This document shows positions 1 through 49,420 of a DNA stretch of 64,000 bases, in pieces. The notes beneath the pieces were generated by a model. That model did not search any database and was not told the DNA's origin. It saw only the letters and a program-made list of their open reading frames with translations. The DNA lies in the NCBI RefSeq assembly GCF_000377985.1, contig NZ_KB899045.1:1-64000 (forward strand). The letters are read 5' to 3'. Positions within the stretch are counted from its first letter, which is position 1. Each line of letters opens with the position of its first letter. The position numbers and the translations under genes were made by a program. Source of the stretch: Sporolactobacillus vineae DSM 21990 = SL153. Its GTDB lineage: Bacteria; Bacillota; Bacilli; Bacillales; Sporolactobacillaceae.

Positions 1-150
1 TCAGCAGAATATATCGCCCTTCGCGAAAAAATATCGACGCTCAGCAGAATATATCGCCCTTCGCGAAATATATCGACGCTCAGCAGAATATATCGCCCTT
101 CACAAAAATATATCGACGCTCAGCAGAATATATCGCCTTTCACGAAAATA
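1..150. repeat. Intergenic tandem array 1, ATATCG core with 20-bp spacing
   Basis: Three full units of 39-40 bp plus a fourth partial unit are seen, starting at 1, 41, 80 and 120. Each 40-bp unit is two 20-bp half-units, so the core ATATCG recurs at 11, 31, 51, 70, 90, 110 and 130. The spacers alternate between CCCTTCGCGAAAA-like and ACGCTCAGCAGA-like. The array starts at the window edge and may extend to the left. It lies about 120 bp beyond the 3' end of ilvD. It does not look like CRISPR (no unique spacers) and I know no named family for it. Confidence 0.9.
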
Positions 151-270: not shown

Positions 271-1998
271 TTATTTGGCTGGTTCCGTCTCTTTGTCCGG
301 CTGTTCGGTCCACGACTCCGGCAGACGCATGACGCCGCCTGTATGAGCGGATGTGACCAGAGCAGCGTAGCGTGCCAGATAGCCGGTCCGGACTTTCGGA
401 CGGAACGGTGTCAGCTGCTTGCGCCGCTCTGAAAGTTCGGCGTCGGAAACAGCAAGATGAATGGTACGATGCGTCAGATCGATCGTAATTGTGTCGCCGT
501 CTTTGACTAAAGCGATCGGTCCGCCGGAAGCGGCTTCCGGGGAGATGTGACCAACCGATATGCCGCGTGAAGCTCCTGAGAACCGGCCATCGGTAATCAG
601 CGCAACGTCTTTGCCCAGCCCGCGGCCGACAATCGAAGAAGTTGGCGCGAGCATTTCCGGCATGCCCGGTCCGCCTTTCGGCCCCTCATACCGGACGACC
701 ACCACGTGCCCTTTCTGGACGGTATGATTGTCGATGGCTTCGACGGCTTCGTCATGAGAATTGAAGCAGATGGCTTTGCCGGTAAAGACTTTGACTGACG
801 GATCGACGCCGCCGACTTTGATCACGGCCCCTTTCGGCGCGAGGTTGCCGAACAGCACGGACAGGCCACCGGTTTTACTGTAGGCCCTTTCCAGCGGATG
901 GATGACTTGAGGATTTTTGACGGAGGCATCTGCAACATTCTCCCGAAGCGTTTTTCCGGTCACTGTCGGGCGATCAGGATGAAGAACGCCGCCCATGTCG
1001 ACGAGACTCTTGATGATGGCGGAGATACCGCCCGCTTCGTCGACATCCTGCATCGAATACGCGGAACTTGGTGCGATTTTAGCGAGATAAGGCACTTTTT
1101 CAGCAACCTGGTTGATCCGGTTCAGGTCGTAATCGATGCCTGCTTCAGAGGCAACAGCCAGCATATGGAGTACGGTGTTCGTCGATCCGCCCATTGCCAT
1201 ATCGAGCGCGAATGCATCGTCGACGGCCTCGGCAGTGATCAGGTCGCGCGGCCGGACGTTGTTCTTTACCAGGTCCATCAGCCGGAAAGCGGATTTGCGG
1301 ACCAGTTCGCGCCGTTCTTCAGAAATGGCCAGTTTCGTTCCGTTTCCGGGGAGCGCAACACCGAGAACTTCCATCAGGCTGTTCATCGAATTGGCAGTGA
1401 ACATTCCGGCACAGGAACCGCATGTCGGACAGGCAGAGGCTTCGATATTGAGGAACTGCTCCTTTGTGATCCGTCCTTCTTTGTAGGCGCCGAGACCTTC
1501 GAAGACGGAGGACAGAGTCAATGCCTTACCTTCTGCAGACAGCCCGGCTTTCATCGGGCCGCCGGAACAGAAGATTGCAGGAACATTGGTCCTGACAGCG
1601 GCGAGCAGCATGCCCGGGGTGATTTTATCGCAGTTCGGCATAAAGAATACACCGTCGAACCAGTGGGCATTGATCATTGTCTCGGCGGAGTCGGCGATCA
1701 ATTCGCGGCTGGGGAGGGAGTAGCGCATCCCCATATGCCCCATGGCAATTCCGTCGTCCACAGCAATCGTATTGAATTCGAACGGGACACCGCCGGCCTC
1801 CCGGATCGCCTGCTTTGCTACTTCTGCCAGCTTTTTCAGATGGACATGGCCGGGAACAATATCCGTGTATGAATTACATACGGCAATAAATGGTTTCTTC
1901 ATATCCTCCGAATTTCTGACGACTCCGGTTGCTCTCAGCAGGCTTCGTGCCGGCGCTCTGTCCAGCCCTTTCTTGATTTCATCACTTCGCAACTTCAC
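271..1998 (-). CDS. ilvD: Dihydroxy-acid dehydratase
   Basis: This enzyme dehydrates dihydroxy-isovalerate and dihydroxy-methylvalerate to the keto acids in valine, leucine and isoleucine synthesis. The protein (575 aa from the chosen start, close to the usual 555-575) has the IlvD/Edd family motifs: [21 protein letters not shown] and the Fe-S cysteines in [18 protein letters not shown]. The open frame continues upstream to 2136, but that part overlaps a terminator hairpin and the family N-terminus begins at [15 protein letters not shown] chose the GTG at 1998, which follows GAGAGG by 5 nt; a TTG six bases further in is the alternative. It is divergent from ilvBNC and sits behind a leader peptide and terminator. 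Confidence 0.95.
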
Positions 1999-2033
1999 TT
2001 CATCCTCTCTGTTTTTCTGTATGTGTATATAGA

Positions 2034-2070
2034 AAAGAGCTCCCGTTTCCTGATTGAACGGGAGCTCTTT
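2034..2070 (-). terminator. Attenuator terminator in the ilvD leader
   Basis: A perfect 14-bp stem (2034-2047 with 2057-2070, AAAGAGCTCCCGTT arm) with a 9-nt loop is followed on the minus strand by TTTTCTATAT. It lies between the ilvD promoter and the ilvD start, so it must be read through for ilvD expression. A second hairpin (CCGGGTCC/GGACCCGG, 2075-2082 with 2099-2106) stands just upstream of it. The weak U-run fits a regulated rather than constitutive terminator. Confidence 0.75.
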
Positions 2071-2140
2071 CTTGCCGGGTCCCCATTCATACAAACCAGG
2101 ACCCGGACAATCGTTAAGTTTTTCAGCGATTGCCAAGGCC

Positions 2141-34360: not shown

Positions 34361-34470
34361 GATTCGCGCAATTTTTGAGAAATACGCGCAGTTATCTTGG
34401 AATGCGCGCAATTTTTGAGAAATACGCGCATTTTTTCCGATTTGCGCGCGATTTCCAGCAAATGCGCGCA
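34361..34470. repeat. Intergenic tandem array 2, GCGCGC core with 20-bp spacing
   Basis: Six 20-bp units start at exactly 34361, 34381, 34401, 34421, 34441 and 34461. Each opens with a 10-bp core such as AATGCGCGCA or AATACGCGCA and continues with a 10-bp spacer such as ATTTTTGAGA. Units 1-2 and 3-4 nearly repeat each other, so there is also a 40-bp period, as in array 1. It fills most of the gap between the osmC-like gene and the GH42 gene. Confidence 0.92.
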
Positions 34471-46897: not shown

Positions 46898-48306
46898 AGA
46901 ACTGGATGAGAACGTTCCGGCTGAAAAGAAAGACAACGGTGTTCCAGATGAACTTCTGGTACCTTCTGATTTTGCTGCTGACCGCCCTGTTCATCGGCAC
47001 TGCGGCCATCATTATTGTCAGTTATTCTCTCTATAAAGGGACGGAGCAGGAAGCGGAATATGTCGAGTACGAGCTGATCCACGAGTCCAAAGAGGCTCAT
47101 CCGAACTGGGATCAGGCCATTAATACGATTCTCTATAATCAGCATCCGAATTTTTATCTGCACATTCAGACACCGAATGGAAAACAGATCTATTCCAAGG
47201 GCAGTGAAAGCATCACGGATCAGAATGCGTACCGGATCACGCTGTCGGTGTTTTCCTCGATATCATTCAAGAAAAAATTCGTCCCTATTTATGAATATCA
47301 GTTTATGTATAACGGCTATAAGTTCAAACTGTTCATTCGGATGGTCAGCATTCACCGATTTATCGTCTTAATGCTCAGGGTCATGTCGCTTGTTGTCCTG
47401 TCGGGTATTTTGATCGGTGCCCTGGCCATTTACCGACTGTCACGGCGGCTGAACCGGCCGCTGATGCAAGCCACCGGAATGATCAATAAGATCACGGAGA
47501 CCAACGATCTGAAGCGCCGCGTTTATGTTCCGGAGTTGCCGAAAGAAGTGCACGACTTGGCGCTGGCTTTTAATCAGCTGATGGATCAGCTCGATAAGCA
47601 GATTGAACGGGATCACCGGTTTGTCTCTGATGCGTCCCACGAGCTGAGAACGCCGCTGGCTGCGATCCGCGGCCATGTCGAACTCATTCAGCGCCATGGG
47701 GCAGGGCACCCCGAAGTGATTGAGCAGTCGATCCATTTTGTCGATCAGGAATCCAAACGGATGCAGCGGCTGATCGAACAGCTGCTGATGATCGCCCGTC
47801 TGGACCGGCGATCGGGGAAACTGGGACCTGTCAATCTTTCAATGGTCGCCCGCAATGTAATTTCCGATTATACAGCCAGTGTAACGCAACGATTCACTGC
47901 CGATGTCACCGATGACGTTTACGCGCTGGCAAATGAAGATTATGTGCACCAGGTCATCGTCTCGCTGCTTGGAAATGCACGTAAATACACACCGGAGGAC
48001 GGAGAAATCCGGATTATCGTCAACCGCGATGCCAGGTATGCCTGCATCCGCGTGCAGAATTCCGGGCCGCAGATTCCCGATGCGGAGAAAGAGAAAATTT
48101 TTACCCGCTTCTACCGGCCCGATCAGTCCCGATCCAGCGCTGCCGGCGGTTCCGGCCTTGGTCTGGCAATTGTCCGTCAGCTGGTTGAACTGGACAAGGG
48201 CGCGATCTGGGTACGGAACATTGTGCCGGCGGGTAATGAATTTGTCGTCCGTCTGACGGGATATGATCCGGATAAAAAGGAGACCGGTGCTCCTGAAAGT
48301 GAATAA
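46894..48306 (+). CDS. Sensor histidine kinase
   Basis: A 470-aa membrane kinase. Membrane segments at about 20-45 and 155-180 flank an extracellular sensor of about 110 residues; then HAMP, the His box FVSDASHELRTPLAAIRGH, and ATPase boxes VSLLGNARKYTPEDG, IFTRFYRPDQSRS and GGSGLGLAIVRQLVE. Pairs with the upstream regulator (4-nt overlap). Resembles the ArlS/YkoH group; the signal is unknown. Confidence 0.94.
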   Translation: MKNWMRTFRLKRKTTVFQMNFWYLLILLLTALFIGTAAIIIVSYSLYKGTEQEAEYVEYELIHESKEAHPNWDQAINTILYNQHPNFYLHIQTPNGKQIYSKGSESITDQNAYRITLSVFSSISFKKKFVPIYEYQFMYNGYKFKLFIRMVSIHRFIVLMLRVMSLVVLSGILIGALAIYRLSRRLNRPLMQATGMINKITETNDLKRRVYVPELPKEVHDLALAFNQLMDQLDKQIERDHRFVSDASHELRTPLAAIRGHVELIQRHGAGHPEVIEQSIHFVDQESKRMQRLIEQLLMIARLDRRSGKLGPVNLSMVARNVISDYTASVTQRFTADVTDDVYALANEDYVHQVIVSLLGNARKYTPEDGEIRIIVNRDARYACIRVQNSGPQIPDAEKEKIFTRFYRPDQSRSSAAGGSGLGLAIVRQLVELDKGAIWVRNIVPAGNEFVVRLTGYDPDKKETGAPESE

Positions 48307-48454: not shown

Positions 48455-49420
48455 ATGTTTGACCGCAAATTTACAATTCCCTTCCATGTCCGTCAGCTTG
48501 AGGCGGCCGTTCACCGGTTCAGCGGAGACCGAAAAAAGAAAATGGAACTCGAAGAACAGCTGAAAAATTATTATGCCGGCTGCAGAGGAGAGTCCGCCGT
48601 AGATTACCCGCTCAGCCTCCTGCAGGAGAGAGAATTCCGGATTCTTCACTCGCTCCGTTTGCCGAATGGCGTGCATCTTTTTCAGATGGACTGCCTCTTG
48701 CTTACAACTCGTTTTTTTCTCCTTCTGGAAATAAAAAACATTTCAGGAACACTTCATGTCGATTCAAAACTCCATCAGTTTTTTCGTGAAAAGAAAGAGC
48801 AGGTGCAACGCTTCTCTGATCCGTTCGTACAGGCCGAACGGTTGATCCGGCAGTTTCGCGTATGGCTGGGCGGGAGCAAGTTTGCTCACATGCCGATCGA
48901 AAAACTGGTCGTACTGGTTTCACCCAATGCGGTACTCTTGCCGGAGTCGGCAGATTCGAATTTTTATCGGTCCGTAACTTTTGTCGACCGGCTGGCGGAA
49001 CGGGTTCTGGAAATCAGCCGTCTTCATGCTGAGCCATTAGTAACACCGAAAATGCTGCGTGCGTTTTCGAAAAAGTTGTGTGCTGCTCATCAGGAACTTG
49101 AACAAAATGTTTTTGCTGCTTATCACATTGATCCAAACCAAATCCGGCACGGTGTCTGCTGTCCGGAATGTGGTACTTTTCCGATGCAAAGACTGAAGGC
49201 GCGCTGGTCCTGCGGGTCCTGCGGCGGTGTGTCAAAAGATGCGCATATTCAGGCGCTAAAGGATTATCGGCTGATCTTCGGACCGAAAATCACAAACCAG
49301 CAGTGTCGTGCGTTTCTGCATCTGGAGTCACGCGACTTGGCCAGAAGACTATTAAGTGCGGCAGGTGCATCCCCATCCGGAACGGGAAAGGCCATTGTTT
49401 ATCACTTGAATTTTAATTGA
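48455..49420 (+). CDS. NERD domain protein with C-terminal zinc motif
   Basis: A 321-aa protein with a nuclease-related (NERD) domain: FHVRQLEAAVHRF at the start, AGCRGESAVDYPLSLL, and the core DCLLLTTRFFLLLEIKNISGTL with acidic and Lys residues as in restriction-like nucleases. The C-terminus has CPECGTFPMQRLKARWSCGSCGG, a zinc ribbon-like four-cysteine motif. Function unknown; DNA processing has been proposed for the family. ATG 48455 is preceded by GAGGTGG; the open frame extends upstream into the kinase gene but the family start fits 48455. Confidence 0.82.
   Translation: MFDRKFTIPFHVRQLEAAVHRFSGDRKKKMELEEQLKNYYAGCRGESAVDYPLSLLQEREFRILHSLRLPNGVHLFQMDCLLLTTRFFLLLEIKNISGTLHVDSKLHQFFREKKEQVQRFSDPFVQAERLIRQFRVWLGGSKFAHMPIEKLVVLVSPNAVLLPESADSNFYRSVTFVDRLAERVLEISRLHAEPLVTPKMLRAFSKKLCAAHQELEQNVFAAYHIDPNQIRHGVCCPECGTFPMQRLKARWSCGSCGGVSKDAHIQALKDYRLIFGPKITNQQCRAFLHLESRDLARRLLSAAGASPSGTGKAIVYHLNFN

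Follow-up and report, generated by a model that had tools for sequence, protein, structure and literature searches.

Phased arrays in the window

The stretch of 64,000 nucleotides analysed here (the window, GC content 52%) carries three arrays of short direct repeats, one of which adjoins a gene for a NERD-domain protein. These features, together with one gene located elsewhere in the source genome, are as follows.

1..150, + strand: array 1, a dispersed ATATATCGCC-class array truncated by the contig end; 13 cores in contig C21
34361..34472, no strand assigned: array 2, a dispersed ATGCGCGCAT-class array of six cores in 20-bp phase, intergenic between OsmC-like and GH42 genes
48455..49420, + strand: NERD-domain gene of family A, 321 aa from its likely start, ATG 48455, with an upstream AGGTGG box; PF08378; invariant residues
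49429..49512, no strand assigned: array 3, of the ATGCGCGCAT class and in 20-bp phase, the NERD-side copy of this class, 9 bp 3' of the NERD stop codon
C7:79150-80115, outside the window: NERD gene with the core of array 1

The first-pass annotation had placed three arrays at these sites, and they were confirmed by coordinates, TRF and shuffling. TRF gave period 20/40 for all three, with best period-40 scores of 258, 122 and 94 for arrays 1, 2 and 3, respectively, and no row with a score of at least 70 was obtained in 30 dinucleotide shuffles of the window. The ATATCG cores of array 1 follow each other in steps of 20, 20, 19, 20, 20 and 20 bp. The single 19-bp step, which had been pointed out earlier, is real: contig C21, where the array is complete, shows 13 cores and a 19-bp step only once. 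In array 2 the steps between CGCGC cores are 20, 20, 20, 20 and 20 bp, and the CGCG cores of array 3 keep the 20-bp register with a single unit (TCGCGCGT) readable 2 bp off. The palindromic core ascribed to both arrays 2 and 3 is indeed common to them and is ATGCGCGCAT.

Positions 1-195 of the window are identical to 195 bases at the end of contig C21, and the array on contig C7 contains a run of N. Since the window contig starts inside array 1 and the C7 array has this N run, arrays of this kind evidently break the assembly.

All three arrays lie just downstream of the 3' end of a gene (by about 120, 70 and 9 bp), as the annotation had observed, but this does not extend to a general rule. According to rough ORF calls, 3 of 17 arrays in the source genome are between divergent genes, so that a location always at 3' ends was rejected; by the same calls, dispersed arrays sit alike in tandem, convergent and divergent gene pairs. 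A Pfam scan of ten window genes near the arrays returned NERD, histidine kinase, UDP-glucose dehydrogenase, OsmC, GH42, ilvD and four others. The best matches listed for IlvD (window 271-2136) are from Enterococcus termitis (76%), Trichococcus (75%) and then Staphylococcus rostri (73%); most Bacillus-type entries among the matches listed are at 60-71%, in a list that may omit close relatives. Rfam covariance models at gathering score had no match in the window.

The NERD gene beside array 3

A longer ORF of the NERD gene begins at 48263 (385 aa) and is used below for residue numbering. The protein matches PF08378 over residues 42-154 (E 4.6e-16; 59.7 bits, with a Pfam curated cut-off of 22.1 bits), and its layout consists of a NERD domain with a PD-(D/E)xK-like motif, a zinc ribbon and an extra C-terminal domain. 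No change occurs among 40 family A proteins at residues G106, G109, E110, D143, E156 and K158 or at the four cysteines of the zinc ribbon, and the motifs G-GE, D..ExK and CxxC..CxxC are likewise invariant over 40 homologues. We take this pattern to be that of a PD-(D/E)xK nuclease with a DNA-binding tail. Five gene pairs were compared for dN/dS; one was saturated, and the other four gave values of about 0.14, 0.24, 0.14 and 0.20. Structure prediction of the protein folded alone reached a pLDDT of 35, and a PDB profile search gave mostly ribosomal-protein zinc-ribbon fragments (best E 0.22).

Four paralogues are present in the source genome, each near an array with its own core: GGCGATAT (C7), GGCTGGATTTT (C4:213 kb), AAGTTCACCCGAA (C5) and TTGATCCTAAT (C35). 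The reading frame of the C35 gene is open across 344 codons. At a locus of a relative (L144 1504-2634), the NERD frame continues into the array and would encode the first array units.

The window protein had no match at E 1e-5 among 50,697 phage and 72,556 plasmid records, which led us to reject a phage- or plasmid-borne element, and scans of viral contigs with this protein and with the second subfamily described below (family B) found no relative. These searches are also relevant to defence. The NERD nuclease could attack foreign DNA, with the arrays of the host binding, holding or switching it and thereby marking or protecting self. PglW and MAD6, two defence proteins, contain NERD-like domains, seen here as weak and partial profile matches, and the cores diversify between lineages as self/non-self codes would. 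However, when six proteins were scanned with PADLOC, no model covered most of the protein and the matches to PglW, Cas10 and a few others were partial and weak. Given this result and the phage, plasmid and viral-contig searches, we regard a role in defence as unlikely.

Arrays with the same core in the source genome and its genus

A search with the arrays as queries found five arrays of the ATGCGCGCAT class in the source genome (C4:34 kb, C4:49 kb, C2:391 kb, C3:229 kb and C5:113 kb) and six of the ATATATCG class (C21:18.5 kb, C21:9 kb, C11, C1, C4:196 kb and C7). The C21:18.5 kb array runs on into the start of the window, and the C7 array, which is partly N, adjoins a NERD gene. In a 400-kb sample and the window, further cores with a 21-bp period were TTCGGGTRAACTT (three times within 14 kb), CGCTCCGAAAT and GACCGAAAC (twice). 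The initial description of the arrays as different in sequence and equal in phase was correct but understated, as there are at least seven core classes in the source genome, with periods of 20 or 21 bp.

In the TTCGGGTRAACTT class, a core of about 13 bp is common to the 19 units and the 8-bp spacer is almost free. Because the core is kept while the spacer is nearly free, this class resembles a row of binding sites and not a fresh duplication. Arrays of the GACCGAAAC and CGCTCCGAAAT classes are located at L022 5175-5240, L013 16938-17040 and L022 11595-11715. A cognate NERD gene for these two classes was not found among the five PF08378 matches of the source genome, and the arrays are possibly orphans.

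The dispersed ATATATCG arrays have conserved ends. The left end, TTAACTCATTCCG, is present in three of five dispersed copies with a fourth similar, the right end, CGGAATAATCAGTT, is present in three of five with the remaining two similar, and the two ends are imperfectly inverted. Since these ends are absent from the NERD-side copy, it appears that a derivative has spread in this class, possibly aided by another enzyme.

We then considered which genomes hold dispersed arrays and which hold the cognate gene; these counts refer to the fetched NERD genes of the genus and not to a full census. Of 15 genus genomes, two contain arrays of the GGCGATAT class, namely G010, with 11 sites, and the source genome, with a single site for this query; a NERD gene with that core is present in both. 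Arrays of the GAYYGATAAA class occur in 7 of 15, six of which have a NERD gene of that group. The seventh, G011, has these arrays and the only NERD copy seen there is broken and lies beside one of them; conversely, G013 has a NERD gene of the group, and its array was not found with this query. Strong matches to the ATGCGCGCAT class among 58 genomes are confined to the source genome, with two weak 32-bp matches elsewhere. When the locus of the neighbouring kinase was compared in ten genus genomes (source included), only G002 besides the source has a NERD gene there; this gene is frameshifted, and its array has decayed to about two units. In the three classes tested, dispersed arrays with the same core were thus almost confined to genomes that carry the cognate NERD gene, intact or broken.

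NERD subfamilies and array period

We fetched 57 family A genes from the source genome and its relatives, out of more than 57 matches listed and with the near-identical pairs L131/L132 and L138/L139 among them. Using TRF with a score of 45, an array with a phase of 20.5 bp (or a multiple) was present within 700 bp of the gene in 52 of the 57. As background, eight other genomes were sampled in 1,120 segments, each of 1.4 kb; an array was present in 14 of these, one of them beside a NERD gene. TRF periods below 15 were dropped from both the NERD-flank and the background counts. In the source genome itself, 12 of 325 segments had an array, two of the twelve beside NERD genes, in a sample where the stretches C2:380001 and C3:220001 had been picked as containing known matches. 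By eye, three of the five TRF-negative genes (L175, L177 and L182) have 21-bp arrays and L136 has a weak one, while the upstream flank of L186, trimmed by an over-long ORF, is too short to judge. One further family A gene, L373, has a period of 157-158 bp and is in no count. In a phylum sample of 199 genomes including the source, A-like genes (E 1e-40 or better) were found in two further genomes; four of the six A-like genes from this sample have such arrays and two show none.

Genome-wide density of arrays was tried as a marker of NERD genes and rejected, because samples with and without family A do not differ. In 200-kb samples of 140 segments each, the array-bearing segments numbered 0 (G014), 1 (G002), 2 (G022) and 4 (G029) for genomes with family A genes, and 0 (G031), 1 (G034), 3 (G036) and 3 (G038) for genomes without a match to the window NERD protein. 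The association between arrays and NERD genes is local and class-specific.

The strongest lag in the range 17-24 was 20 or 21 in 66 of 68 NERD-flanking arrays (21 in 51 and 20 in 15), with arrays under about 45 bp dropped and the two other lags, 23 and 24, scored as misses. The annotation had made its proposal depend on a preference for 20-bp spacing elsewhere, and this preference is present in the form of lags 20 and 21. Its reading of each unit as two helical turns agrees with a pitch of 20-21 bp but needs adjustment, since 21 is commoner than 20 and only 21 bp is exact at 10.5 bp per turn; at 20 bp, successive units would be rotated by about 34 degrees relative to each other if the DNA were not overtwisted.

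Units do turn over: two NERD genes with 99.7% identity in their coding DNA are accompanied by 43 and 34 exact cores. Such variation in unit number between near-identical loci is what would be seen if the arrays were functionless products of slippage that came to lie near NERD genes through chance or hitch-hiking. However, the association (52/57 against 14/1,120) contradicts this, and so do a period specific to the subfamily and variable spacers between fixed cores. We find passive repeats scarcely credible. Slippage unique to this strain, which had been named as the outcome that would undo the proposal, is excluded by the arrays in other genomes, though units are gained and lost.

With respect to the side of the gene, the array is downstream only in 22 of the 57 family A genes, upstream only in 19 and on both sides in 11. 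This distribution bears on whether the NERD protein is a DNA-binding regulator, with the adjacent array controlling its own gene and the dispersed arrays controlling others. Repeated cooperative sites are typical of autoregulation and would fit such operators, as would the position of arrays next to the NERD gene and the purifying selection on NERD genes suggested by dN/dS. On the other hand, an operator is not what would be looked for at an array that is downstream only in those 22 genes and downstream in all ten genes of family B, the dispersed arrays show no regard for tandem, convergent or divergent gene pairs, and residues of nuclease type are invariant in the 40 family A proteins. Taken together, operator arrays seem distinctly unlikely to us.

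Family B consists of ten weaker NERD matches that were first fetched as controls. Arrays with a period of 51-53 bp, about five helical turns, are found behind all ten genes, 19-125 bp past the stop codon, and their sequence differs from array to array. Seven aligned family B proteins keep the family A layout, with the acid before the lysine being E or D. At 10.5 bp per turn, 21 bp makes two turns, and at 10.4 bp per turn, 52 bp makes five. Arrays of at least three such units were found beside none of 22 NERD genes outside A and B; among these genes, a 20-bp row of two copies lies 639 bp from L344, and L349 has a 36-bp repeat. The period therefore tracks the subfamily, with 20-21 bp in A, 51-53 bp in B and no array of at least three such units in the 22 others. 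So the arrays would appear to go with proteins having the zinc ribbon and extra C-terminal domain of A and B, the 22 others having been scored on arrays only.

Correspondence between cores and proteins

In order to compare cores with proteins, we scored array similarity between loci, leaving out the five genes without a TRF array. In gene orientation, the mean similarity was 41 at protein identities of at least 60% (10 pairs, near-identical ones included), 18 at 50-60% (26 pairs) and about 8 below, whereas in reversed orientation it was 6-8 at all identities. At 45-65% identity, a score of at least 18 was reached by 20 of 68 pairs in the forward orientation and by 0 of 68 in the reversed one; below 45% identity, the corresponding values were 20 and 4 of 1,254. 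Taken over all protein pairs, the Mantel test gives a weak correlation (rho 0.078, with 44 of 2,000 permutations as high), because most pairs have no core in common.

In the tree of 28 genus proteins, cores near GACCGATA with a period of 21 bp are found in a group of seven (support 85/74), and the four members of its sister group (support 100/99) have arrays of 20 bp whose cores include GGCGATAT. Whether the period is 20 or 21 follows the tree weakly, nearest neighbours agreeing in 38 of 52 cases (220 of 5,000 permutations were as high). Identity was also compared domain by domain as a guide to the determinant of specificity, and no protein domain stood out; pairs above 85% identity were left out of this comparison and of the nearest-neighbour test. 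These results suggest roughly one code per NERD type and not a single code for all cores.

The orientation of the array relative to the gene is kept as well: at 14 loci with arrays on both sides, the two arrays match directly in 11, inverted in one and in neither way in two. Kept orientation would be consistent with co-transcription of array and NERD gene and a role of the array RNA as guide, decoy or antitoxin, and family B adds to this with arrays downstream in 10 of 10 cases and inverted repeats in some consensus units (9-10 bp in two of ten and 7 bp in one of ten). Against an RNA-level system, helical spacing is meaningless for RNA, the array is upstream only in 19 of 57 family A genes, no Rfam family coincides with an array in the window or at 20 NERD loci, and kept orientation could be plain inheritance. 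We consider that the arrays have little chance of acting as RNA. Over 20 NERD loci, Rfam gave two matches, neither at an array: a T-box leader (L190 4334-4566) and a Bacillaceae-1 RNA (L192 1893-1993), near two family B NERD genes.

Interpretation

Arrays and NERD genes are linked, the spacing is specific to the subfamily, cores change together with proteins, and, in the three classes tested, dispersed arrays with the same core occur mainly with the cognate gene. On balance, we think it probable that the arrays belong to a two-part system, composed of a gene of the NERD nuclease family and a population of arrays with the core that its protein would recognise. The annotation had suggested a protein binding cores two helical turns apart. 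The adjacent gene (48455-49420), the arrays at 52 of 57 homologues and the joint change of core and protein support this indirectly, but not in the form of one common code.

As to how such a system might work, the zinc ribbon and the C-terminal domain would bind the core, with protomers lined up next to each other, each occupying 20-21 bp (two turns), and for this reason binding would be cooperative. The PD-(D/E)xK-like NERD domain would then nick or cut at or near the arrays, and copying repair could alter the number of units, homogenise them and seed arrays in other intergenic sites. Spread would in this scheme be driven by the NERD protein itself, in the manner of RAYT/REPIN, where a chromosomal enzyme gene has its own replicating population of short sites. 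The dispersed ATATATCG arrays, in view of their ends, may have spread through another enzyme.

The linkage between gene and array gives two NERD subfamilies a concrete candidate DNA partner that can be tested. The matched proteins and cores, some with a 20-bp and most with a 21-bp pitch, would form a natural series for studying how cores are read and helical turns counted, and also how families of short DNA last in the compact genomes of bacteria. Repeat arrays of this simple kind, which interrupt the assembly of these genomes, would become readable as sites of named genes.

Comparison with known systems

In a search of the open literature, with subscription papers and most preprints outside its scope, we found no account of NERD genes with repeat arrays, and a NERD gene with its cognate phased arrays is apparently an undescribed system. 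PMC9040797 describes SmdA as a membrane-anchored cell-morphology protein without several conserved NERD residues, and states that, to its authors' knowledge, NERD-domain function had not been studied in any bacterial protein before that work. SmdA and other NERD proteins resemble the present ones in the NERD domain; they differ in that the 22 NERD genes outside A and B are without such arrays.

CRISPR has in common with our loci repeats with variable spacers adjoining a gene of nuclease type, but the units here are 20-21 bp with spacers of about 8-10 bp, and no cas genes were detected in the Pfam scan of the ten window genes around the arrays. Arrays resembling typical CRISPR, with repeats of about 30 bp at a period of 65-68 bp, were seen at L203 618-5658 (G014) and L212 175-742 (G002) and are unrelated to the phased arrays. 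At plasmid replication origins, iterons of about 17-22 bp are repeated directly and in helical register. Our arrays are likewise direct repeats in helical register; however, many core types are dispersed in one chromosome with no plasmid, and there is no Rep (replication initiator) gene among the ten window genes scanned. STAR elements of Staphylococcus aureus are intergenic short direct repeats in Firmicutes with one GC-rich motif, and we know of no gene linked to them. They are similar to our arrays in being intergenic short direct repeats and, by this description, different in having one motif where we see many.

RAYT (TnpA-REP) proteins are HUH/Y1 transposases, and REPs are hairpins. Here, the Pfam scan of the neighbour of array 3 gives NERD, the sole transposase-type entry being a zinc-ribbon match far below the cut-off. 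Inverted hairpin REP pairs are not seen either, as the units are direct repeats at 20-21 bp and ATGCGCGCAT is the only palindromic core among the classes listed. A NERD protein thus takes the place of the transposase, and arrays of phased direct sites that of the hairpins. What is alike (cf. PMC8049555) is that an enzyme gene on the chromosome has short repeats of its own type on its flanks and that repeats of this type are also dispersed between other genes; dispersed repeats are tied to the cognate gene in three classes, G011 and G013 being the exceptions. A bolder proposal, of which we are somewhat more doubtful than confident, is that the two NERD subfamilies represent a new class of site-specific array nucleases. 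Each type would have its own core code and a fixed pitch (two turns in A, five in B) and would maintain and spread its cognate chromosomal arrays without phages or plasmids, as a transposase-free counterpart of RAYT/REPIN in which codes split as the proteins diverge.
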